Assembly: GCA_950295325.1 (NCBI GenBank)
Contig: OX485809.1
Coordinates: 18,428,144-18,492,143 of the forward strand
Direction of reading: 5' to 3'
DNA: 64,000 bases
Source: Polytrichum commune
Taxonomy: Eukaryota > Streptophyta > Polytrichopsida > Polytrichales > Polytrichaceae
A program made the translations under genes and the position numbers. How positions within the stretch are numbered: the stretch's first letter is position 1; every line of letters starts with the position of its first letter. The notes under the pieces are model-generated. The model had not been told where the DNA came from and searched no databases. It saw only the letters and a list, made by a program, of their open reading frames with translations. Below are positions 4,782 through 64,000 of this stretch, piece after piece.

Positions 4782-5934
4782 TTAATGGCCGAAAACAGCA
4801 GCGTGGGTAAAGAGCTCGGTGACAATAAGCCCGAAGAAACCCAACATGGCAATACGCCCATTCCATCTCTCGGCTTTGGCTGTGAAAGGCCCGAAACTGC
4901 GAGCATCCGTGGACTCTCCGCTCATGATTGGCACCAGCGATGCGTAAGTGAACACTTGCACAGCCGCTAGGAAGTAAATAAGACCAGGCTGACCAGGGTT
5001 AGACAGCTGCTCCAACACAGTCAATCCTGTCATTCTCTCCGCCACCACTGCCCACACGAATCCCAGCATCGCCTGTAGTACAGCCCAACCAATCCAATTT
5101 TTCAGAAAAATTAAATAGGGAATTAGGGTTTAGGAGTGTCACTTGCAGGCAGTTGTGCTACAACTTTCCCGACAGAAAACAGGGAGATGATATTTGAGAA
5201 AAAAGAGACGTCTGCAGCCAAGTGAAGTGCAACAATCCATGTGAGCAGATGGGTCCAATACTAAGGTGGGCGTTTTGTCATAACACAAATGCATTGATGT
5301 TACATCCGTTTGCTAAATCCTTTGCCGTAGAAAAGGGGTACTTTTGCTGGTTAATCGATTTTCACAGAGGACCTAACAAGAGCAGATAACATTTGAGGAA
5401 GAGAGAGACACTTGCAGAGAAGTGTAATCCACTAATCCAAATTCTACGTATTTATTTCGGTTCGCTCGATCGGATGTGCAGGAAATTTACAAATTACAAG
5501 AAATTGCATACCAATCGGCAGTTGATGGTCTCGGGTGCTGCGCCATCGAAGGCGAAGACGCTCCAGAAGGACTTGCTGCCGGTCTCCGGCCTCCTCTCCA
5601 CCTCGGGGCGAGGGTATAACGATCCAGAAGTGGGCTGGGTGCCCATCACGGATTTCTTCTCGGACTCATTGGTCTCCTGGTTGCGGAGAATGTCGTCCTT
5701 GGTGATGGTGTTTTTCGTGTTCCTGTCCACAACCTCCTTGGCGTCCGCCAGAGGACCCTTTCCACCTTGAGACTCGCAACGCACTCTTCCCGCCAGAGAG
5801 GTCGCCAACCTGGGAGTGCAGGTCACCGACGAATTAGCAATGCTGCATTTCCTGAGCTGAGTCTGGAGAGGCAACGCCGGAAGGCCTCCCGCCTTGGAGC
5901 TGGTGACAGCGTGCGACATCATCAGGGCTGCCAT
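4782..5934 (-). CDS. ELIP: Early light-induced protein (ELIP), 2 exons
   Basis: Exon 1 is 5512-5934 and exon 2 is 4782-5072, joined in phase 0 across a 439-bp GT-AG intron; the product is 237 aa. Residues 1-55 are Ser/Ala/Arg-rich and look like a chloroplast transit peptide. Helix I begins APETINCRLAMLGF at the exon junction, helix II is the LIYFLAAVQVFTYASLVPIM stretch, and helix III begins AERWNGRIAMLGF. This is the three-helix chlorophyll a/b-binding fold of ELIPs, thylakoid proteins that bind pigments and protect against excess light. The usual Gly after Asn in the helix I ExxNxR motif is Cys here (INCR), but the Glu, Asn and Arg ligands remain. The start was chosen as the only ATG giving a transit peptide. 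The gene lies between inverted arms carrying U2 genes. Antisense open frames over exon 1 are shadows. Confidence 0.93.
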
Positions 5935-6122
5935 GATACTTTACTTTGCTTCGGAGTCGCAACCTGCTACTTAACAGCAACTGGGATTGGCGAAGAAGAC
6001 TTCGCTGTATGTGGTGATCGATCGAGAATTGGAGAAGTGGAGTTGAATATCGAGAAAGATTCAATTCTGGAATGAACTCCTACGTACACTGTTTGGGTTG
6101 AATGGAAGGGAAGAGGCTGTGA

Positions 6123-51632: not shown

Positions 51633-52239
51633 CTGCCTAGTGGTTAAAGGCAGGAAAATTGTTACCGACCAACCGGCTTCTACCCTTCTTCCTGAGCTAT
51701 TAGTGTTCATATAAATTAATAAAGGGGTCCTCATTATGACCTCTTCTTTCTTATTCTGTTGGTATTGCTTGGTTGTTTTCAATACGCCTTTTATGTAGAA
51801 GGATTGAACTAGCATGTTGTATGGCAATAGTGTTTATTTCTTTGATTGTATGTTTTATCGAGTTTTCAGGGAGTTTAAATGTTTGTTCCAATTGTTTCAT
51901 TGACGGGGCGTGCGTGGTTCCTCTTGCTCCGGCCGTAATGACTAGAAGTGGCTCTGTTTTCCAGCCATGTTGAGTGATGTCGTTAATTAATGGTTGATAT
52001 TTTTGGATTTTATTGTTAATTGTATCTTGTGGAAATCTGTCATTTGTGTATGTGAATTCGATAAACTGTATCGTCAGATTGTCTGTTGGGTGTGATGGTG
52101 GGGTACTTTGGTGTGGGAGTTCTTTAATACACAGGAGGTCGGGTTTGAATTTAGCGTTACAGTGGCATCTTTATTGTGTATATGTGCATGGGAGGAGCCA
52201 TGTGGGGATTGTATTCTCTTGTGGGCTGTTGTTAAATGT

Positions 52240-52616: not shown

Positions 52617-53786
52617 TTAGGTTGTTATCTCGGTCGTGTTTGGTAATGTATGTTTCAAGGCATCTGACAGGGCCCTTGTCAGGTCGTTTGGTTGGGCCAG
52701 GCCATGTGTCTTTTTGAAAGTAGTATGGAGTAGTGTATGCATATTCGTATGATTTTTCAGCAAATCTATATCTTTTTTTGATGCCTTGTTTTCTAGTTGG
52801 TCTGCTTGTTTATTCCCATCAATGTTTATGTGTGCTTTGACTTTATATATCGTGGTAGGTTGTGTTCGGCTTTTTAACATTTTTATCATAGATTTTAATA
52901 TAGTTTTGTCAGCGTTGTTGTTATGGCGGGTGGGGTGTTTTATTTGTGTGTTAAGTACATATAGACAGTTGAGACAGTCTGTGAATATGTGTGCTGGTTT
53001 ATTAGCGTATTTAGTAGTAATTAGTTTGAGTGTTTTGTGTATGGCCATTAGTTCTGCTCTAAAGTTGGTTTGTAGGTCAGGTAGTCTCTTTGATATACGT
53101 ATTTCTGTTTTTATTGGGTTATAGATTTCGTAGCCCGCTTTTTCTTTCTTCCAATGTCCGGCGTTGTCTTTTTTGGGTGGGACAAACGAGCCGTCTGTGT
53201 AGTAGCTGTATTGTGGTGGGAATTTTAATCTAGTGTTGATTTCGTAGTTTGGTAATGGTGGTGTGTTTGTGGTTGACGGGTTAATATGGGGTGGGTAAAG
53301 TAATTTATTCCATTTAACATTTTTGTTTACTGGTGTGTTGTTGGGTGTGGGTGGGGCCTTTTGTATGTGGTCTTGTGCTATTTGTAGATTTTCTATTGTT
53401 GTTTTGATTATATCTATTTGGTTGGGTATGCCAATATTGTGGTTTTGGTGGTGGATACAAAAGATGTGTATTGCTAATGGTTCAATTCGGGGTTTGTTTG
53501 TGTTTTGAGGGGTTGTGGGTTCGTCGTATGTGATGGTATCTGCAGTGAAATGGGTCAGAACATGTGCGTCCGGGAAGGGTCCGGTGTGTGGTGAGTAATT
53601 TTGGTACCAGTTGATGTCCGGTGTGACTAGTAATGTGATGGTGTTTGGGTCGTTTTTGGCTGCTAATCTAGCCCAATGTATTGCTTGTTGGGCCATTTCT
53701 TCATTATGTGGGTGGGCATACCCAATTCCATTCCATTTATATTGGAAGACGGTGCCTAGTGATCCAAAAAACTTTGTCCCTTGCAA
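52617..53786 (-). pseudogene. LINE ORF2: unknown domain and RNase H
   Basis: A 389-codon open stretch. The last 200 residues are RNase H: YYTDGSF (first Asp), FRAELMAIH (Glu), HIFTDCLNCLY (Asp) and HINIDGNKQADQLE (His/Asp) keep the catalytic set. The first 100 residues (GIGYAHPHNEEMAQQAIHW, then ARLAAKNDPNTITLLVTPD) are a separate compact unit seen upstream of RNase H; the HPHN and following strand faintly recall Dam-like methyltransferase folds, which is only a guess. Upstream the frame was open before this piece, so it is part of a longer ORF2, not an independent gene. Confidence 0.8.
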
Positions 53787-54910
53787 ATGAAGAATTTTTT
53801 TTTGTGATGTGTGTAGAACATGTTATTGGTGAGGAGAAGTATGAGTGTGAGATGTTGAATGCTTTTGTGATGGAGTCTAGGAGGTTTTGTGGGAGGGTGT
53901 ATTGAGCTATTTTTAGTGGATCTTTTTTCGATTGTTTAGGGTTATATCTTTGATAGAGCCATACTAATTCTGTTTCAAATGATTGTGTGTGGGGGGGGTA
54001 CTAGACCATGTGTATTATATTTGTCTTTGTTATATTGTTGTCATAGCCATTTTAGTCTAGTGGTTGGGATGGTAATGAGGTGTCTGCCTGTGTCTTCATA
54101 TATGTGTGTTATTTTGTTTTGTGTTTGTATAGTGTTAGTTACAGTGGCAATATCTTTCTCTGGGTTACATTTTATTATTGATATTTGGGTGTGTGGTATT
54201 ATCGTAGATGGTGGTATGAATCTCGAGTCTTTAGTTTGTATAGGGGTTAGATGCGTATTTACTATGCTATTGTAGTAATTGTGTTGATGTCTTGTGTAGT
54301 ATTCTTTTAGTAGTTTAATGTTATGTTCGACTACTGTGGGTTGGTTTAGTGGGAATAGGTCACCTTGTGGTAGTCATTTATTATATGTTGTGTTGTTTTG
54401 AGGTGATCATTGGCATAGATACGTGTTGATTTTTTTTGTTATTTTATATTTATCTTTTGTTTCGTTTGTTTTGTGATTTAGTATAATTTGTATGGAGAAT
54501 TTTAGAGGATTATTTTTTATATTTGGGGGTGGGTTGGGTTGTTCGAGTTGGTGTGGTAGTGGTGGATGCGGGGGGTTTTCCGGCATTCTTGGTGTTAGTT
54601 CGCTATTTTCTGATATGTATTGTGCTTTGAGTGTGCAGACTTGTGGGTGTTGAATACATGGATTTGGGCAGTTTTAGTTACAGCTTTGGTGGCAAAAGAG
54701 TTGTTCCGCTATATGTAGTTTTTTTTTTACTAGTTTTGTCGGTGTTTTGTAATATGTTTGGAAGTCTTTTGGTGACATTAAATTTGTGCCGTTGGGGAGA
54801 AAAATGTGTTTTATTTTTTGTATGTTGTGGGTTAGAAGTTTATGTAGGAGTTTAAGGGATATCTCATTGTCTAGTTGTGGTAGATGAGTTGTGGCTTGTG
54901 TTCTCCATTC

Positions 54911-56660
54911 TTATTCCAGTTCTATCATATGGAGCTGGAAATTTGCTTCTGTGTTTTCGAGGTGAATTTCTCCTTCTTTTTTCATAAGAAATAGTATTCT
55001 TATTATAGGTGATCTGATACAGTCTTGGTATTTAATTCTTTCTATGTCCTCCGCCCCTCCGTGTTTGGCTAGTATATGTTGTATGAGTCTTTTGTATATT
55101 ATTCCTAATCTGCCATGGTCGTTTAATGCGTTTCTGAGTTGTTCACCTATACATCTTAGGTAGGCATCTTTTAGTGAGAAGGCTTCTAATCCAAATAATT
55201 CATGTGGTAGTTGGGTTATTATATTTGCTGTACATTTGGGTAGGCCACATATTACTTTTTGGATTCCGATAATTTTTTTGTCTAATTTCTTAATGGTTGG
55301 CAATGAATATGGGACTGCATAGAAGCTATAGGCTATACCGGCTCTGATGACGGTGTCCACCATGCTTATTTTTTGTTTAATTGTAGCTGGGCAAGTTGTT
55401 AGTTGTTTGCATTGGTCTATTATTTTGTTTAAAGTGATGTGTGTTTGGAGTTTCCATTTAAGTGAGGGTACTAGTTGTATGCTTAGATATACGTAGGATT
55501 CGTTTTGGTGTAGAATAGGTAGTGGATGGTTTTTGTAGCTGATGTTTTGGGCTTGGATTTTGGCTTTGAATGTTTCAGATTTTGTTTTTTTATTTATTTG
55601 GGCATCCTGTGATGGCACATTTTGGCACTCCCAAGTCCATTCCGGCCCAATCACAATATTTGTCTAGTTTATTTAGTTGGATTTGTATTGATTGGAGGTT
55701 GCTTATGATAGCTGCCAGATCATCTGCCGATGCTGCCGAACTAATTGTTAGTTTGGATGTACCAAATGTGTATCCATTTTTCCCTATGTGTAGCCATCTT
55801 AGCAGGGGTTCTAGGAATATCAGAAAGAGGTATGGGCTGAGTGTGTCGCCTTGTATTATGCCTCTTTGTATGGGTATAGGTTTTGTTTTTCCGAAATGTC
55901 CGCCGGTGAATATGGTATTAGAATTTGAATAAATGTTCCCTATTAGGGTCACAACGTCTTCTGGATATCCTAAGTCTTTGGTTATGGCTAATAGTCTTGC
56001 GTGGTCAAGAGAATCGAAGGCGTTTTTAAAGTCGTTATATAGTAGGTATATGTCTTGGTTTGTGAATCGTGCGTCTTCTAGTGCTGCTATCAGAAGTTGA
56101 AGTTGTCTAGATGTGTTTCTTTCTGCTCTGAATCCTTCTTGAATGTCGTGTAAGATTTGGTGTTCTTCTCCGTATGCTGACAGTATGAATGTTAGAGTGC
56201 TCGTAAAATATTTGTATATTGTGTTTGCTAGTGCAATTGATCTATGGTTGGTTAATTTGGAAGGATCTTCCTTTTTATATAAGAGTATAGTTAAGCTTAT
56301 TTTCTATAATTTTGGAATTTTTTTTTGTTTATAGCAGTGAGAGAAGAATAGGAAGAGTAGTTTGTGAAAGCTTTCAGGCATATTTTTTTAAATTATGTTA
56401 GGAATTTTATCTGGGCCGGGTGTTTTGTTGTTGGCTAGGTTTTTAAGGCTTAAGTCGTATGTTTCTCTGTTGAAGTATTCATGTAGCGTGGTTTGTGGGT
56501 TTCTTCTTTTGTCGATAACAAATCCATCAAGGTCATACCATGGGTATTGTCTTACTCTGCAAGTACAATGTGGTGTGTGTTCTGGTTGGTGGTAGCATGT
56601 TGGAACTGTGGGTCTATTACTAATTGATTGTTGTTTGTGGATTTGATTGGCTATATCCAT
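54911..56660 (-). pseudogene. LINE ORF2: reverse transcriptase and post-RT region
   Basis: RT blocks in order: NLANNKTPGPDKIPNII (block 1, near 56400), LLYKKEDPSKLTNHRSIAL (block 2), QEGFRAERNTSRQL (near 56120), YLLYNDFKNAFDSLDH (motif A, catalytic Asp), PIQRGIIQGDTLSPYLFLIF (motif B, near 55860) and AASADDLAAI (motif C), then WAGMDLGVPKCAITGC (motif D/E area). Motif C has Ser before ADD where LINEs usually have Tyr or Phe. The frame has an in-frame TAG where Trp is expected near 56310 and changes frame near 55600; the post-RT piece 54911-55654 (YVYLSIQLVPSLKWKLQTH and onward) continues in the other frame. So the enzyme is not made from this copy as it stands. Confidence 0.9.
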
Positions 56661-57304: not shown

Positions 57305-58156
57305 TTAATATCCTTGGGATTTATCTGTTATTGTCGGCATACATCGGGCTATTAATGTGTTATTTGGTATATGTAATGTTACTGATGAGTGGTCTGAGTT
57401 AAGGTTGTGGTCATTATTCGTGGTTGATGTGTATAGAGTATTGTTAGTTGTTTTTATGAAGTATCCATCTATTAGGCTAGTTTGGTTATAGTTTTGGCCA
57501 CCTTGTCTAGAATATGAGCTGTTCGTGGGGACGTACGTAAGTTGCAGGCTGTTTATAAATGTACGCCATTCTATATCTTGTGCTTGTGGTGGTGTTGTGA
57601 TGTATTCGTTTTGTCGTCCAATTAGAACTATGTCTCTGTTAAAGTCTCCGCATAGAATGTGTGTATAGTTGGGGTGATTAGTGGTTTGTTGTGTTATGTT
57701 TTGTTGTAATATTGGTATAAATCGTGTATCTGCTTCGTGTGTTGGCATGTAGATGTGTATTATTAGCCATGGTTGTAAGGGTTGGTTCTTTATTTCTATT
57801 ATTTGGAGGTATGATGATATTGCGGCTGGGGTGGGGATTTTAGTAATATTTCTTGGGTATGCATATGTTTTATTTATGAGCGTAAGGAGTCCGCCTTTTG
57901 CATGTGTATATGGCATTCTTTGTTGTATGCATCTTGTTAGTGCATGTATATTGTTGAATATTAGTTTATATTGAGGGAATAGGTTTTGTATATACTTTGT
58001 AGATTTTGTTGCTGTTAGTTTGGTTTCTTGTATAGTGATAATTGCCGGGTTGTTTGGTGTATTGGATATAAGTTGGTGTAGGTTTGGTAGGGCTATATTT
58101 AGTGATGAAGCATTCCATGTGATTATGTGTGTACTGTGATGTGTTGTCTGGTTCAC
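57305..58156 (-). pseudogene. LINE ORF2: APE-type endonuclease
   Basis: About 250 residues with the apurinic-endonuclease-like signature of LINEs: THIITWNASSLN, AIITIQETKL (Gln-Glu), LIIHIYMPTHE, THILCGDFNRD (Gly-Asp-Phe-Asn) and NDHNLNSDHSSV (Ser-Asp-His). This enzyme nicks target DNA to prime reverse transcription. All catalytic motifs remain and the domain itself is uninterrupted, but the frame runs upstream of the first residue given here without an ATG, consistent with being the inside of ORF2. The linker to the 2A motif, about 600 bp, has frame changes. Confidence 0.88.
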
Positions 58157-58748
58157 TTGGGGGTGTTGTGCTGGTGTGTTGGGTAGTGGTGGGGGGTGGG
58201 AGTATTCTATTAGTGGCTCTTTGCATTTTAATGATTCTGTAAGTAGATTTTCTGGTAGAAAAGGGAATTTGTCTTTTATTAATTATAGAGTTAGTGGTTC
58301 AATATTTTGGTTGATGAGGTTATATAATTTTTTTGTTGATGTTGTTAGGTGGGTTTATGATGTCTTGGTTTATTTGCAGGAATTGTGTGTATGGATGTGG
58401 GGTGCTGATGTGTCTTTCCGGTGGGTTTTGGAGTGAGGCCATTTGTTCTAAGACTTTTGTTGTCCAGTCTGGTTCTGGGGTTTGTATGAGTATATGGTTG
58501 CATGTCTCTATTACTGGGCTAATTGTGGTAATAAGTGCGTACAGTATGCGTGGGGGTGGGTGGTGTTGATTTTGGTAAATATATCTTGATAGGTGTGGAT
58601 GGACTGTGGTTGTGTCTTGATGATTTGGGTGTGTTATATTTATGATTGGAGAAAATTGTTTTGCTAAGTGTTGGTACTCGGGTTGTAACTTGATTGTGCA
58701 TTCTATAAAGTATCTTTTGCATTTATTTTTGTGTGTGGATGGGTGTGA

Positions 58749-58991
58749 CTATAGGATGTTGGGCATGGGTCCTGGGTTAGTTTCGATGTCTCCGCTAAGT
58801 ATTAGGAGTAGGTGTAAGAAAGCGTGGATTATGAGGAGGATTTTCCGTTTTTTGTAGGTTGTGTACCATTGTTTTTTGTTATTATTATTGTATGTATTTA
58901 TTACTTCGTAGTCTAGTTTTGTTATTTGGTTTGGGTGTTTGATGTTGTTTTTATGTGTTTGTGTGATGTGGGGCGTGTTTGTCTGTTCCAT
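58749..58991 (-). CDS. 2A-type ribosome-skipping motif at the ORF2 N-terminus
   Basis: The reading frame has ATG at 58991 and ends at 58749; residues 66-75 (58767-58796) are SGDIETNPGP, a perfect match to the 2A consensus D(V/I)ExNPGP. Before it stands a basic then hydrophobic stretch (YKKRKILLIIHAFLHLLLIL), like the signal-like leaders seen before 2A in some animal LINEs. 2A makes the ribosome skip the Gly-Pro bond, releasing the upstream part. The frame continues open upstream without ATG to about 59825 (Lys/Asn/Thr-rich). Five codons after the final Pro there is a stop, so in this copy the motif is not joined in frame to the endonuclease. Confidence 0.8.
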   Translation of the reverse strand: MEQTNTPHITQTHKNNIKHPNQITKLDYEVINTYNNNNKKQWYTTYKKRKILLIIHAFLHLLLILSGDIETNPGPMPNIL

Positions 58992-60093
58992 TATTGCCTT
59001 TTGTGTTTTGTATGATTTCAGTTCTTTGTATGTGTTTTTATCTTTCCAAAGGTGTTTTTTGGTTATTTTCGTGTATTTGTTTGTGAGGTTTGTGTTTGTT
59101 TTTGGTGGTGTTTTTTGTTTTGTTTGGTCTGTAGTATTAAGGGTTGTTTTGTCTTTGTTGTTGTTATTATTATTATTATTATTTTTGTTTTTGGGTGTTT
59201 GTGTTTGTTTAGTGTTTGTTTTAGAGCCTTTGTTGTTTCGGTTAGGGTCGTTTGTTTTATTTTGTTTTATTTGTGTGCAAGTATTGTGTCTGATTGTATT
59301 TGTACTGTTTTGTTTTTTGGGTTTGGGTTTTGTGTTTGTATTTATGAGTTTAGTTGTGTATTTTGTCTTTGTTTTTGTTGTGTTTGATGCATGTATTCTA
59401 AGTATGTATAAGGTATATGAATTAGTATGGGTATTCTTATTTTTTATAGTTTTGGTATTTCTTTGTTTGGGTGATGTTTTATTTGTGTTTGATTTTTGTA
59501 TTCTTATTATTGTTGGGTGTGTTCTTTTGTTATGTTTGTATTTACTTTGTTTTTGTGCGAGGCCGGTAGGCCGAGCCCGTTTTAGGTTTGTTTTGGGGAT
59601 ATTTTTCTTACCTTTGTTGTTTATGGTTATGCGTTTTGCTTCTTTGGTTGTTTGGGGTTTTATGTGTTTAATTGATTTTATGGTTGTGGATGTTGTTTTA
59701 GTTTCCCTTTGTGTGAGGGCATTAGAAAGTGTTATTCCTTTTTTTTGTTTTATGTTTTTGTGTGTTTGTTTAGAGGTTTTGGGATTTTTGTTTTTTGGAT
59801 TTTGGATTTTTGGGGTTATGTGTTGTTACTTTTTGTTTTGTTTGTGCGGCAACGTTAAGAGGTGCTATTTCTTTCTTGTTTTTTGTTTGTTTTAGGTTTG
59901 TTGGGTTTTTTTTTGTATATCTTTTTTGTTTTTGTGTTGTGCTTTTATTTTACCATTGATGGTTTTGCATAGCCTAGGTAGGAGGTATGTCGTGTATTTT
60001 TTGGGGTGGGGTTTTATTTGTTTTTGTTGGGTGTGTTTATTTTTGTTTTTGGGCTTTATGTTATTTGGGGTTGTGTGTTGTTTAAGCTTATTC

Positions 60094-60129
<36 letters not shown>

Positions 60130-61052
60130 TTGGTTTATGGGCGAGGTTGGTAGGCCGGGTTCTTTTTAGGTCTTTGTTTGTCATTATTTTTATTAGTTTT
60201 GTAAGGTTTTGTTTGTTTGTGTGGGGTGGTGAGGTGTATGTCTTTATGTGTTTTGTTTTGTTGATTAGTATGTTTATTTTGTTGTTTTTGTTGTTTTGTT
60301 GCATTATTGTCTTAACATTAATGTTTTTACTTAGCTTAGGTGGTGGGTATATTTTGGGGTGGGGTTTTGTTTGTTGATGTTGCGTGGGTTCATTATTCCT
60401 TTTTGTTTTTATTTTGTATGAGTTGGTGTGTTGTGTTTTGTTTTTTGAGTATATGAGTCTTTTATTGTATTTATTTTGATTATGGGCAAGGTTGGTGGGT
60501 TGGGTTTGTCTTAGGTATTTGTTTTTTGTGAGTATCTCTATATTTTTAAGGTTTCTTTGTCTTTTTGTTTGGTGTTTGTTATAGGGAGGTGGGGTGTTTG
60601 ACCTTGTGTGGTTAATTGTGTATGGTGTTTTTTCGTTGTTGTTTTTTCTTTTGAGTGTGTTATCTACATTTCTTCTAAGTATGTGTTTTTTAGTATTATA
60701 ATTGGTTATTATTTTTTCGGTATTTCTTTGTTTGGGTGTTGTTTTGCATGAGTTTGAGTTTTCTTTGTTTTCTTTGTATTTGTTTTGTACTTGGGCGAGG
60801 CCGGTAGGCCGAGCTCGTTTTATCTTGTGTAAGTTTTTCCTAACTTTCTTTTGGTGATTATTTTGGTGTTTTTTTTATTTTGTAACTTTTTGTGTGTAGG
60901 CGTGGTGTTGTTATGTTGTGTTTGTATATTGCTTTGGTTTTTTGGTTTTTAGGATGTGTTAGTTTTGTTTGTATTAGGTTATGTTTTGGTTGTTTTGGTA
61001 TACTTTGTTTTTGGTATTTTTGTTGTTGTTTTAGTTTATGTGTTTGTGTGTG
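58992..61052 (-). repeat. Low-complexity A/C-rich spacer with recurring motif
   Basis: The + strand is almost wholly G and T (minus: A and C). A 30-base motif GGGCGAGGCCGGTAGGCCGA-like recurs at about 59557, 60139, 60485 and 60792, standing out as the only GC-rich pieces; each has GGCC repeated around a 4-base loop. A (GTT)9-type run is at 60098-60126 and an (ATT)n run at 59164-59183. The minus frame leading to the 2A motif is open over 58749-59825. The long + frame 58939-59895 is a composition artefact. Confidence 0.7.
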
Positions 61053-61281
61053 AGCATTTATGAATGCTTTGGTTTGATTTGGTTTTTTCTTTCTTTTTTG
61101 TTGTTGGTTTAGTTTACGAGTTTGTGTGAAAGCGTTAAAAAATGCTTTGGTTTTATTTGTGTTTTTGTTTTTTTTTTTGGTTTGCGGATTTGTGTGGTAG
61201 CATTTAGGAATGCTTTAGTTGTATGTGTTATTTATTTATTTTATTTTTTGTGTTGCTTTGTTGGTAGCATTTCCAAATGCT
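61053..61281. repeat. Four AGCATT-N4-AATGCT hairpins after ORF1
   Basis: AGCATTTATGAATGCT (61053-61068), AGCGTTAAAAAATGCT (61131-61146), AGCATTTAGGAATGCT (61199-61214) and AGCATTTCCAAATGCT (61266-61281) are spaced 67-78 bp, with loops that differ and arms that are kept (the second has one G-T style change). They start about 90 bp beyond the ORF1 stop on the minus strand. Units around them share GTTTGTGTG and TTTGGTTT(G/T)ATTTG. Confidence 0.75.
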
Positions 61282-61372
61282 ATTGGTTTGTTTGTTTTCA
61301 TTTTTTCCATTTCTTCATTTCTTGTGTGGATACACATTTTTTGTGGGTGGGCTATGTGGTTGTTTTTCCATC

Positions 61373-63148
61373 CTAGTTTTCCAATTGAGGTTGTGTTGGG
61401 GCTAGAATGGAGTCTAGCGCTTTTGTTGTCATACTAACCGCTTGTGATGTTAGTGCAAGTTGTTTTTGGATTTCTGTGAGTTGTTGTTTGACATGTGTTG
61501 TCAAGTTTCGGGTGATTCTTTCTTCGCGTACATCCGCTTCCAAGGATACCTCTTTTTTGAAGTCTCCCATTTCCTTGTGTATTTCTGCTGTGAGTTCGGT
61601 TTTGAGCTCAATTAGGAGTTGTCCATTCCGCTTGTCCATGGCAGTTCCGACTAGTGCGTCTAGGTCGTCATGTGTGATCATGTTACTTTTCCCTTTGCTT
61701 TGCGGTGCATTGCGAGTTGCCTCAAGAGTATCTGCAATTGCTGTGGTTATGTCACAAAACCCGAGTTTTTCTTGCTCCTCCTTAGTAGGTGGTATTGCTC
61801 CTTGCAAGCTTTTTGGATGTGGTGCAAAGCTTACATGCTTACCAAAGATCTCTATTGTCTTGCCTACCCATTGTTTGTAGACAATGGCGTTAAGGCATTG
61901 CACATTAGCCATGCCTTTGTGAAGGTCACCTACTTGTCCTGGAAAGTAAAAGGATGCAACATTGAGCTCACCTAGCACTGCTTTGATGGAGTCCTTTGTG
62001 TCCTCAACCTTCTTCATTTTGTGAAGACCATAAAGGCATAGCATGGTGGCATTCTTCTTTTTGATTTCATCCTCTGTGAGTCCTTCCCTGCGGCTTCTTC
62101 TTTCTGCTTTGGCTACTTGTGGTGTGATTACCTGCATGAGTTCTTGCTTGTATGGGACAAGGTATTGGATGATCATGTTTGCTTGTGTTGGTGTGGTTGA
62201 GATGAGCCATCCCCATGTTTCCTCTTTAACCTTTTGCACACTAGCAATCTCATAGTCATACCCACGTCTGAAACTTTCAATTAGAACATCTCTCTGTAAC
62301 TCACTAGAGGAGATGAGGTGTAGCTTGGGGTTTTCGATTTTTGTAGATAGCAATGTGTTCCTAGCTATGGAATCATAGCATTTGCAAATCTTTCCTAGAG
62401 TGTGAGTTTTGTCTAGTGACAAGATGAAAGGGCGTAGTCCCTTAAGCATGCTAATTCCATCAACTTTAGGATTTTTGAGGTGGATCTTAATGGTCCCTGT
62501 CCAGAACTTGATTTTGTTATTTTTTTCTTTTTCTTTGCAAGGGATGTAAATGGGTTCCGCTAGTCCTATCCCCAATTCGATGCTCATGCATGCTAGTCTA
62601 GTTGTTGCCATGTTGAGTATCTCATTATGAGTATAGTCTGTTGATGGTCTTTCAAAGTGGACAGCTATGTGGTAATCAAAGGAAAGTCCGGTGCCCGGAT
62701 CGACTTCGGTTTCAATGGGTAATTGAGTTAAATTGAAATGTTGCCCACCTTTCCCATCTGGCCTCTCAAGTGGGTAGAGTAGTTGTCTTACATGTGGGAA
62801 TGCAATCTTGTAGAGTTGACTCATCTCCTCTGCTTCTCCTTCGGATATGCCCATTTCGATGAGGTCCTCCTTCTTCATTGATGGCCTACAATCCTTGGTT
62901 TTTACTCCTTCGATGGCGAGCTTCTCCATAGCCAAAATTCCAAGCCAAAAGTCCTTCGGTGTTTCCTTTAATCCGGTTGTAAGCTCTACATTTTTCTTCC
63001 GCTTGCTTGAGCTGCCTCCTTTCTTTGCTTCTTGTGTCCTCTTGGTTTGGGTGGTCTCTATCACCATTGTGTCATCCGTGTCTTCCATGTTGGTGTCAAT
63101 GGGGCTCCTCATGATGGCGTCATGAACTGCTTTGCCTCTATTTGCCAT
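61373..63148 (-). CDS. ORF1 protein of the large LINE (unknown fold, C-terminal coiled coil)
   Basis: Uninterrupted 591-aa frame from ATG 63148 (MANRGKAVHDAIMRSPIDTN). The frame is open further upstream to 63868, but that extension starts only at non-ATG codons or weak ATGs and is compositionally different, so I take 63148. Residues about 20-60 are acidic then basic (KRKK near 60, possible nuclear signal). The middle (about 80-490) is a mix of alpha and beta segments, with IKFWTGTIKIHLKNPKVDG and ASFYFPGQVGDLHKGMANVQ possibly being RNA-binding folds; no zinc knuckle is seen. Residues about 515-580 (LLIELKTELTAEIHKEMGDF and onward) are heptad-like and should form a coiled coil, as LINE ORF1 proteins often do for trimerisation. 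Position and strand suggest ORF1 of the LINE; a separate gene is the alternative. Confidence 0.65.
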   Translation of the reverse strand: MANRGKAVHDAIMRSPIDTNMEDTDDTMVIETTQTKRTQEAKKGGSSSKRKKNVELTTGLKETPKDFWLGILAMEKLAIEGVKTKDCRPSMKKEDLIEMGISEGEAEEMSQLYKIAFPHVRQLLYPLERPDGKGGQHFNLTQLPIETEVDPGTGLSFDYHIAVHFERPSTDYTHNEILNMATTRLACMSIELGIGLAEPIYIPCKEKEKNNKIKFWTGTIKIHLKNPKVDGISMLKGLRPFILSLDKTHTLGKICKCYDSIARNTLLSTKIENPKLHLISSSELQRDVLIESFRRGYDYEIASVQKVKEETWGWLISTTPTQANMIIQYLVPYKQELMQVITPQVAKAERRSRREGLTEDEIKKKNATMLCLYGLHKMKKVEDTKDSIKAVLGELNVASFYFPGQVGDLHKGMANVQCLNAIVYKQWVGKTIEIFGKHVSFAPHPKSLQGAIPPTKEEQEKLGFCDITTAIADTLEATRNAPQSKGKSNMITHDDLDALVGTAMDKRNGQLLIELKTELTAEIHKEMGDFKKEVSLEADVREERITRNLTTHVKQQLTEIQKQLALTSQAVSMTTKALDSILAPTQPQLEN

Positions 63149-64000
63149 TTGTTGATCACAATGTTTGTTAATATTTTGGTAGGTTTGAGGGATAGTGCTT
63201 TTATCTCCTCCTCCTTTTTGCGCGTGCAAGCGGGCTTTATGGAGGAGATTATAGCTTTGGTTACCTTGTCCTAACCTTTTGTATCTACAAGTTGTGACAT
63301 TAGTTGTGTTTATTAGTTTGGAATTAGTTGGTTTAGTGTACATGTTTGGACATAATGCTTTGTTTGGTTTAGTGAAGCTATTTTTTTGCTTAGATTTTGC
63401 TCCTCTACTTTCCACTAGCGCGTGTAGTGGGGCTTTGTAGTAGAGGAGTTTTATTTTATTTATGCAGGTGTTTTCATGGTTGTTATTCAATGTGGAATGA
63501 CATTTCCTATCTATGTGTAGCAAGAGAAAATGGAAAAACATTGTATTCAAAGAGGGAGGAGTCGTACCTTTGTGAGGTGAATTACCTCTATGACCACTTG
63601 GTGTTGTGTTGTTGGGGTTTGTAGGAGGTTGATGCACTGTGTCTTCGGTGGGTGCTGATGCTCTTGTGTTGTTTCGCATGAGGCTTTGGTGAGACGGGTG
63701 AGCTCCGGTCGTTAGTTCCGAAGAGGTAGAGCTGGTGTGATCGAGGCCGGTTTTTGATTGGTGTATGGTCCCGGTGTTTTTCTTATTACTTGGCTTGCCA
63801 ATGCACTCAGGCCATGCCCATCCAACTCGCTCAGATATGGGTTTTTTCTCCTTCCGGGATCCACACACCCTTCACCAACCGGCTCTGGATTACACTTTTG
63901 TGCCTGGGCGCGGTGTGTTCGTGTTTGAGTAGGACCAGCTTGTTAGGTGGCCATGTAGATTCTAAATACTAGAGCCAATGTTCCAACACCAAATTATAAC
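63149..64000 (-). other. LINE 5' leader candidate
   Basis: Minus-strand sequence upstream of ORF1. It is open in the ORF1 frame up to 63868, which may be chance in T-poor sequence. AGAGCCGGTTGGTGAAGGGT near 63880 recalls an internal promoter element only weakly. The window ends before a clear 5' boundary or target duplication can be seen. Confidence 0.4.

Follow-up and report, generated by a model that had tools for sequence, protein, structure and literature searches.

The octapeptide DIETNPGP encoded by a LINE in a land-plant genome is very probably a genuine, selected 2A (StopGo) signal, placed near the N terminus of ORF2 in a Dualen/RandI-like element where, judging from sequence comparison, it would serve a leader-2A-enzyme mode of translation with skipping of the Gly-Pro bond. 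At a 2A signal the ribosome releases one protein and then carries on with the next, and such signals are known mainly from animal viruses and from some animal and trypanosome retrotransposons. The copy described first lies in a stretch of 64,000 nucleotides, here called the window, on the chromosome-size contig C7 of an assembly of 408 Mb in 64 contigs, which was searched as a whole.

The motif and its element in the window

All features of the element lie on the minus strand. An earlier note on this DNA had placed SGDIETNPGP at 58767-58796, and the minus-strand translation bears out these coordinates exactly, with a core, DIETNPGP, that fits the 2A consensus (D/G/C/N)(V/I)ExNPGP; the predicted break falls between the Gly codon at 58770-58772 and the Pro codon at 58767-58769. 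The hydrophobic leader that the note described is there as well, as the stretch ILLIIHAFLHLLLIL (58797-58841) directly upstream of the 2A has a mean Kyte-Doolittle value (KD) of 2.85, the top value of 60 copies jointly with copy L006. The motif also sits, as had been said, on the coding strand between ORF1 (61373-63871) and the endonuclease ORF (57305-58282). ORF1 is an open frame of 832 codons with no Pfam match, and its end, TQPQLEN followed by the stop, is the same in copies L006, L007, L008 and L020.

Between ORF1 and the hydrophobic stretch runs an A/C-rich, T-poor spacer (58842-61372) that aligns patchily between families, and the part of it adjoining the 2A is probably the ORF2 leader. 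Because the sense strand is rich in A and C and poor in T, long upstream open frames mean little alone. The spacer contains a GC-rich island, GGCTCGGCCTACCGGCC (59561-59577, an exact match with 0 expected), and a second island with one mismatch to it (60799-60815). Such islands also interrupt the A/C-rich spacers of several families (L001-L012 and others), and GGCTCGGCCTACCGGCC is possibly a cis-element. Some 2.7-3.1 kb before the 2A, loci L009 and L010 have short tandem repeats (NTILKQNT... when translated), with many shifted self-matches.

Downstream of the motif, the window holds a conserved domain in the frame of the 2A (58320-58748), the AP endonuclease (APE) domain (57305-58282; Pfam PF14529 8.4e-8, PF03372 7.9e-6), a reverse transcriptase (RT) domain (55590-56303; PF00078 1.3e-20) whose best PDB match is R2 and which was also placed by a tree, an ORF with an RNase H domain (52617-53822; PF00075 4.4e-14) and a C-terminal RLE-like segment, KPD...IEFTY...KIQKY, that was aligned with relatives (51751-52170). 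This copy is decayed. An in-frame TAG stop (58749-58751) follows five codons after the 2A and the APE domain lies in another frame, and no intact endonuclease shares the reading frame of the motif in the window; the 142 codons past the TAG stay in the frame of the 2A. Copy L006, which is 95.5% identical to the window copy over 9968 aligned columns, is open at the position of this stop.

Continuity of the motif with APE in one frame, which the earlier note had looked for, is found in L003, L006, L013 and L066 and fails in the window copy and many others. After the motif, 907 codons are open in L003 (the whole frame through the motif being 225+8+907 codons), 353 in L006, where they reach into the endonuclease, and 1306 in L013, and L066 has a single ORF2 of 2372 amino acids with the motif at residue 77 and with APE, RT, RNase H and the C-terminal domain. 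Elsewhere the frame breaks soon after the motif, after 9 codons in L016 and 14 in L015, as it does in the window. A different view, which we consider unlikely, is that ORF2 is initiated at an ATG just after the motif (NPGP-M) by leaky scanning or reinitiation, tuned by an upstream uORF-like arrest peptide. Met does follow the last Pro in 54 of 60 copies, and a similar ORF1 stop in several families and the long spacer would suit such a start, but L013, L016 and L066 and the public proteins P0034, P0041, P0065 and P0071 keep NPGP without the Met, and in the open copies the reading frame runs across the motif without a break. For a -1 frameshift that would join ORF1 to ORF2, the frames at the ORF1 end were inconsistent between the 13 copies compared.

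Constancy of the motif and selection upon it

The strict codon pattern for D(V/I)ExNPGP matched the genome 201 times, against 0 matches for the reversed control and a chance expectation of about 0.4 (equal base frequencies assumed), while a more inclusive pattern gave 415 matches against 0 reversed; chance matching was rejected on these counts. An independent anchor 93 nt downstream of the motif yielded 260 matches and 0 reversed, and copies found with it are thus not selected by the motif. The first 100 of these 260, all on contigs C1 and C2, were read. The strict motif is present in 62 of them, 58 with the same spacing, and the sequences of the remaining 38 were fetched and read individually: 22 have a full octapeptide (11 with DIH, 4 with DIK, 5 with DIEL or DIEI and 2 with A or N at p12). 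In total, 84 of the 100 carry a full octapeptide, in-frame spacing being kept in 80 of these, and 16 are altered, one by a frame shift and 15 by degradation at the same place. Sorted by core, the 100 copies comprise 67 D(V/I)E, 11 DIH, 4 DIK, 2 with A or N at p12 and the 16 altered or shifted. The earlier note had asked whether other copies lack the motif, and none of the 100 is without a trace of it. The DIK variants may be inactive. The variant with H at p14 retains about 90% or more of the activity in reticulocyte lysate according to an excerpt of PMC12846837.

Beyond this genome, 85 related proteins were collected, the first 83 of them 37-92% identical and the last two, P0084 and P0085, belonging to other LINEs. 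The motif site lies upstream of the start of 38 of the 85; of the 47 that span it, the pattern D-x-(E/H/Q)-x-NPGP is found in 42, the most distant being P0081 at 38% identity, and the other five are altered, by a one-residue change in P0056, P0058, P0063 and P0069 and by a cut, altered form in P0070. P0084 is a different APE-RT-RNase H LINE that has DIETNPGP near its N terminus, and its RT groups with that of P0085 and not with the plant elements.

The codons themselves vary. Synonymous codons occur at seven of the eight motif residues (Ile is ATT, ATC or ATA in 19, 20 and 18 cases, and Glu is always GAA), and in NPGP all four codons are used for both prolines and for glycine, so that what is conserved is the peptide and not the DNA. 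Over 60 copies pN/pS was 0.23 for the eight codons of the motif, 0.35 for the 32 codons after it and 0.62 for the 12 before it, ratios that are indicative, as the set (21 copies picked by the motif, 38 picked as not matching the strict pattern, and L066) is biased in both directions. It could be held that the motif is a functionless relic, common by descent only, because the copies fetched all come from a single lineage of elements and many are decayed. The low pN/pS in the face of synonymous variation, the retention of the motif in distant public relatives and its multiplication into tandem, mostly in-frame arrays (below) leave this explanation with very little probability.

The sequence upstream of the core ends in (A/S/C)G in 50 of 60 copies and has L or I at -4 in 55 of 60, and the L-rich (S/C)G stretch fits the "LLLLSG-like" upstream class of 2A that is set out in part of PMC12846837. 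A long hydrophobic leader is restricted to the subfamily of the window and a few others, many families having a short LLxCG-like stretch; the median KD over the 60 copies is 0.46 and 1.6 is reached in only 6. With so few strongly hydrophobic copies a signal-sequence role would be local, and as a general role it was rejected. The earlier note had offered two functions for the motif, and the comparison of copies favours the separation of a leader over the signal sequence. One may still suppose that the region acts mainly as a regulated signal or anchor, with partial skipping and membrane targeting of the unskipped product, as in the sea-urchin NLR proteins that serve as precedent in an excerpt of PMC4981915. 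The long stretch of the window subfamily, with its KD of 2.85, speaks for this; the scarcity of such stretches, the many families with just the short LLxCG-like form and the nearest Met in the window frame, which is 67 codons upstream of the motif, speak against it, and we judge it improbable. The sea-urchin 2A signal sequences resemble the window subfamily in their N-terminal position and hydrophobic stretch, and differ, as far as that excerpt describes them, in that the element here is no NLR gene and the long stretch is not general.

How far coding extends upstream was judged from alignments within and between families. In many cross-family pairs the alignable DNA starts 3-55 nt before the motif and extends up to 5.5 kb beyond it, the greatest length compared; ORF1 is alignable again in several pairs, the spacer between them in patches only. 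In one family of 17 copies, the leader region has 121 pairwise indels of 3n length and 0 of other lengths over 300 nt upstream, with an excess of third-position changes in the 180 nt nearest the motif, and this leader is common to 16 of the 85 public relatives (the 16 being picked by the leader end). A candidate leader start ATG is present in 10 of the 17 copies of this best leader family and lacking in 7, and its site overlaps a GC-rich island of the kind seen in spacers too. In family A this excess dwindles beyond about position -180, and indels of other than 3n length occur there. The four copies of family C seem to evolve as pseudogenes, an excess at third positions being missing (0.23-0.39) even from several bins on the downstream side of the motif. 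The peptide SAYRPRH had been a candidate for a conserved leader start in family C and was dropped, as it overlaps the GC-rich island that recurs in spacers; the evidence for a leader therefore rests on the 180 nt beside the motif.

The class of LINE and its host

The host is a land plant, perhaps a moss. SAM_LFY was found at 4 places in the assembly and in none of 14 control genomes, those with a name all being prokaryotes, and rbcL and rpoA lie on a contig of 146,561 bp (C8), the plastome, where rpoA is open and the ORF beside rbcL is one that we take to be accD-like. The LEAFY exons of three loci have Asp at the position of Arabidopsis His312, presumably the moss-type residue. Seven contigs of chromosome size and the open plastid rpoA may hint at a moss outside the Bryopsida, for instance Polytrichum. 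For foreign contamination, which the earlier note had named as a danger, or for misassembly of some other organism's element into the plant genome, no support was found. The motif matches lie on C1, C2 and C3 (among the matches listed), the window is on C7 and L066 on C5, so that the elements sit on chromosome-size contigs of the very assembly that holds the plastome and the LEAFY genes; the RT, moreover, stands separate from the RT of P0084, the other LINE with a 2A. Contamination can hardly be credited at all.

The element is a LINE of a plant genome, as the earlier note had it, and not of the usual plant L1 kind. Compared with PDB entries, the RT of L066 scores 99.6 bits against R2 and 52.9 against L1, whereas the plant L1-type RT of L067 shows the reverse pattern (L1 139.7 bits, R2 71.5). 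In an RT tree of 12 rows, the four RTs of the 2A element group in a single clade (100/99), with R2 next to it (83/92, not starred), and the human L1 and the plant L1 RTs (L067 and L068) stand together elsewhere (97/95). Membership in plant L1 was rejected, the RT being outside the L1 clade and nearer R2 both in bits and in the tree. L067 and L068, from the same host genome as the 2A element, are plant L1-type RTs with long open frames.

APE was found both in the window and in L066 (PF14529 9.7e-8), and so was RNase H (Pfam). The C terminus has a Cys/His zinc knuckle and RPD...EFTY...KxxKY, kept in most relatives of the alignment, which we take to be RLE motifs, and its only PDB matches were two sequences, 8gh6 and 8ibw, of a single "reverse transcriptase-like protein" (presumably silkworm R2), which cover the knuckle weakly (E 1.7-1.8 and 1.3). 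APE, RNase H and a putative RLE together point to the Dualen/RandI group, and the element is probably a member of it, set beside the group by published descriptions. Like the group as so described, it combines both candidate nucleases and RNase H, with an RT outside L1 and beside R2; unlike it, it has a land-plant host and a 2A. In the parts of the sources used here, Dualen/RandI LINEs are said to encode both nucleases (PMC4640811), RandI is listed for green algae (PMC3747384), and a 2022 review describes land-plant LINEs as L1 and RTE (PMC9033089).

A further segment of the L066 ORF2, residues 1632-1720 (locus positions about 5779-6045), between RT and RNase H, resembles PCIF1_WW (PF12237; 27.4 bits, E 3e-6, below the Pfam cut-off of 31.1); in a LINE ORF2 this is presumably a possible methyltransferase-like domain.

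Tandem arrays and the proposed mode of translation

In the proteins P0023 and P0040 and in a dozen loci, two or three 2A motifs follow one another in one open frame. Three are present in L047, L060 and L069 (in L047 the first is preceded by Arg, and one has the form DIYTNPGP), and two in L031, L033, L036, L043, L062, L065, L070, L071 and L072; L069-L072 were chosen because of neighbouring motif matches. Most upstream motifs are preceded by a repeated leader like YYTWNNSxIILLxG, and the last motif often by LLxLQCG. Of 12 motif spacings below 1 kb among the matches listed, which come from the first 100 of the 415 inclusive matches and some of which are maybe from related copies, 11 are divisible by three (p=4.7e-5 on the assumption of independence). 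The upstream motif is out of frame in L045, L061 and L066 (there the first of two), which looks like the result of frameshifts as tandem arrays decayed, and in L050 a stop separates the motifs. Many upstream motifs are of the DIQ type, and E14Q had an activity of only 56% or 26% in earlier tests, as quoted in part of PMC12846837.

On the reading preferred here, ORF2 would be translated as leader-2A-N-domain-APE-RT-RNase H-RLE. A nascent chain of L-rich-(S/C)G-D-I-E/H-x-N-P-G in the exit tunnel would cause the Gly-Pro bond to be skipped, the leader would be released with the 2A as its tail, and the ribosome would continue with an enzyme that begins with Pro. In the tandem families, two or three 2A modules would free several small leaders before the enzyme is made. 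The benefit may be that the ORF2 protein is freed from its leader, that the amount of enzyme is set, or both. The skipping and its benefit, like the start codon of ORF2 and the function of the RLE, are what we infer from the sequences.

In L1Tc of trypanosomes and in the animal elements, the 2A is reportedly positioned upstream of APE, like here. The same octapeptide in frame with element proteins is what the present LINE has in common with those APE-type LINEs (Odon et al. 2013 for the animal ones), and a land-plant host, an RLE-like C terminus and, in some families, arrays of two or three motifs are what set it apart from them as other papers cite them. With the LLLLSG-like viral StopGo of PMC12846837, in the portion of that paper drawn upon, it shares the core, the class of the upstream hexapeptide and the variant with H at p14, the difference being that it is a cellular retroelement. 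The same portion reports almost no StopGo in plant viruses, six cases being judged to have misassigned hosts, and part of PMC4981915 records that 2A is functional in plants in constructs. Among the matches listed from the open-access PMC literature, no description of 2A in plant LINEs was found.

It seems rather more probable than otherwise that dual-endonuclease LINEs of land plants use natural StopGo, and that some families have expanded it to tandem 2A arrays that split several small leaders off one ORF2. If true, this would be a natural use of 2A by an element of the plant kingdom, with multi-2A polyproteins in a LINE, and dual-endonuclease LINEs would extend into land plants, where the review cited above lists L1 and RTE in the part used here (PMC9033089). 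With its hundreds of copies, such a retroelement would make it clear that plants meet 2A naturally, and plant-derived 2A sequences for biotechnology would follow. It also raises the question of why a LINE would shed the leader of its ORF2.
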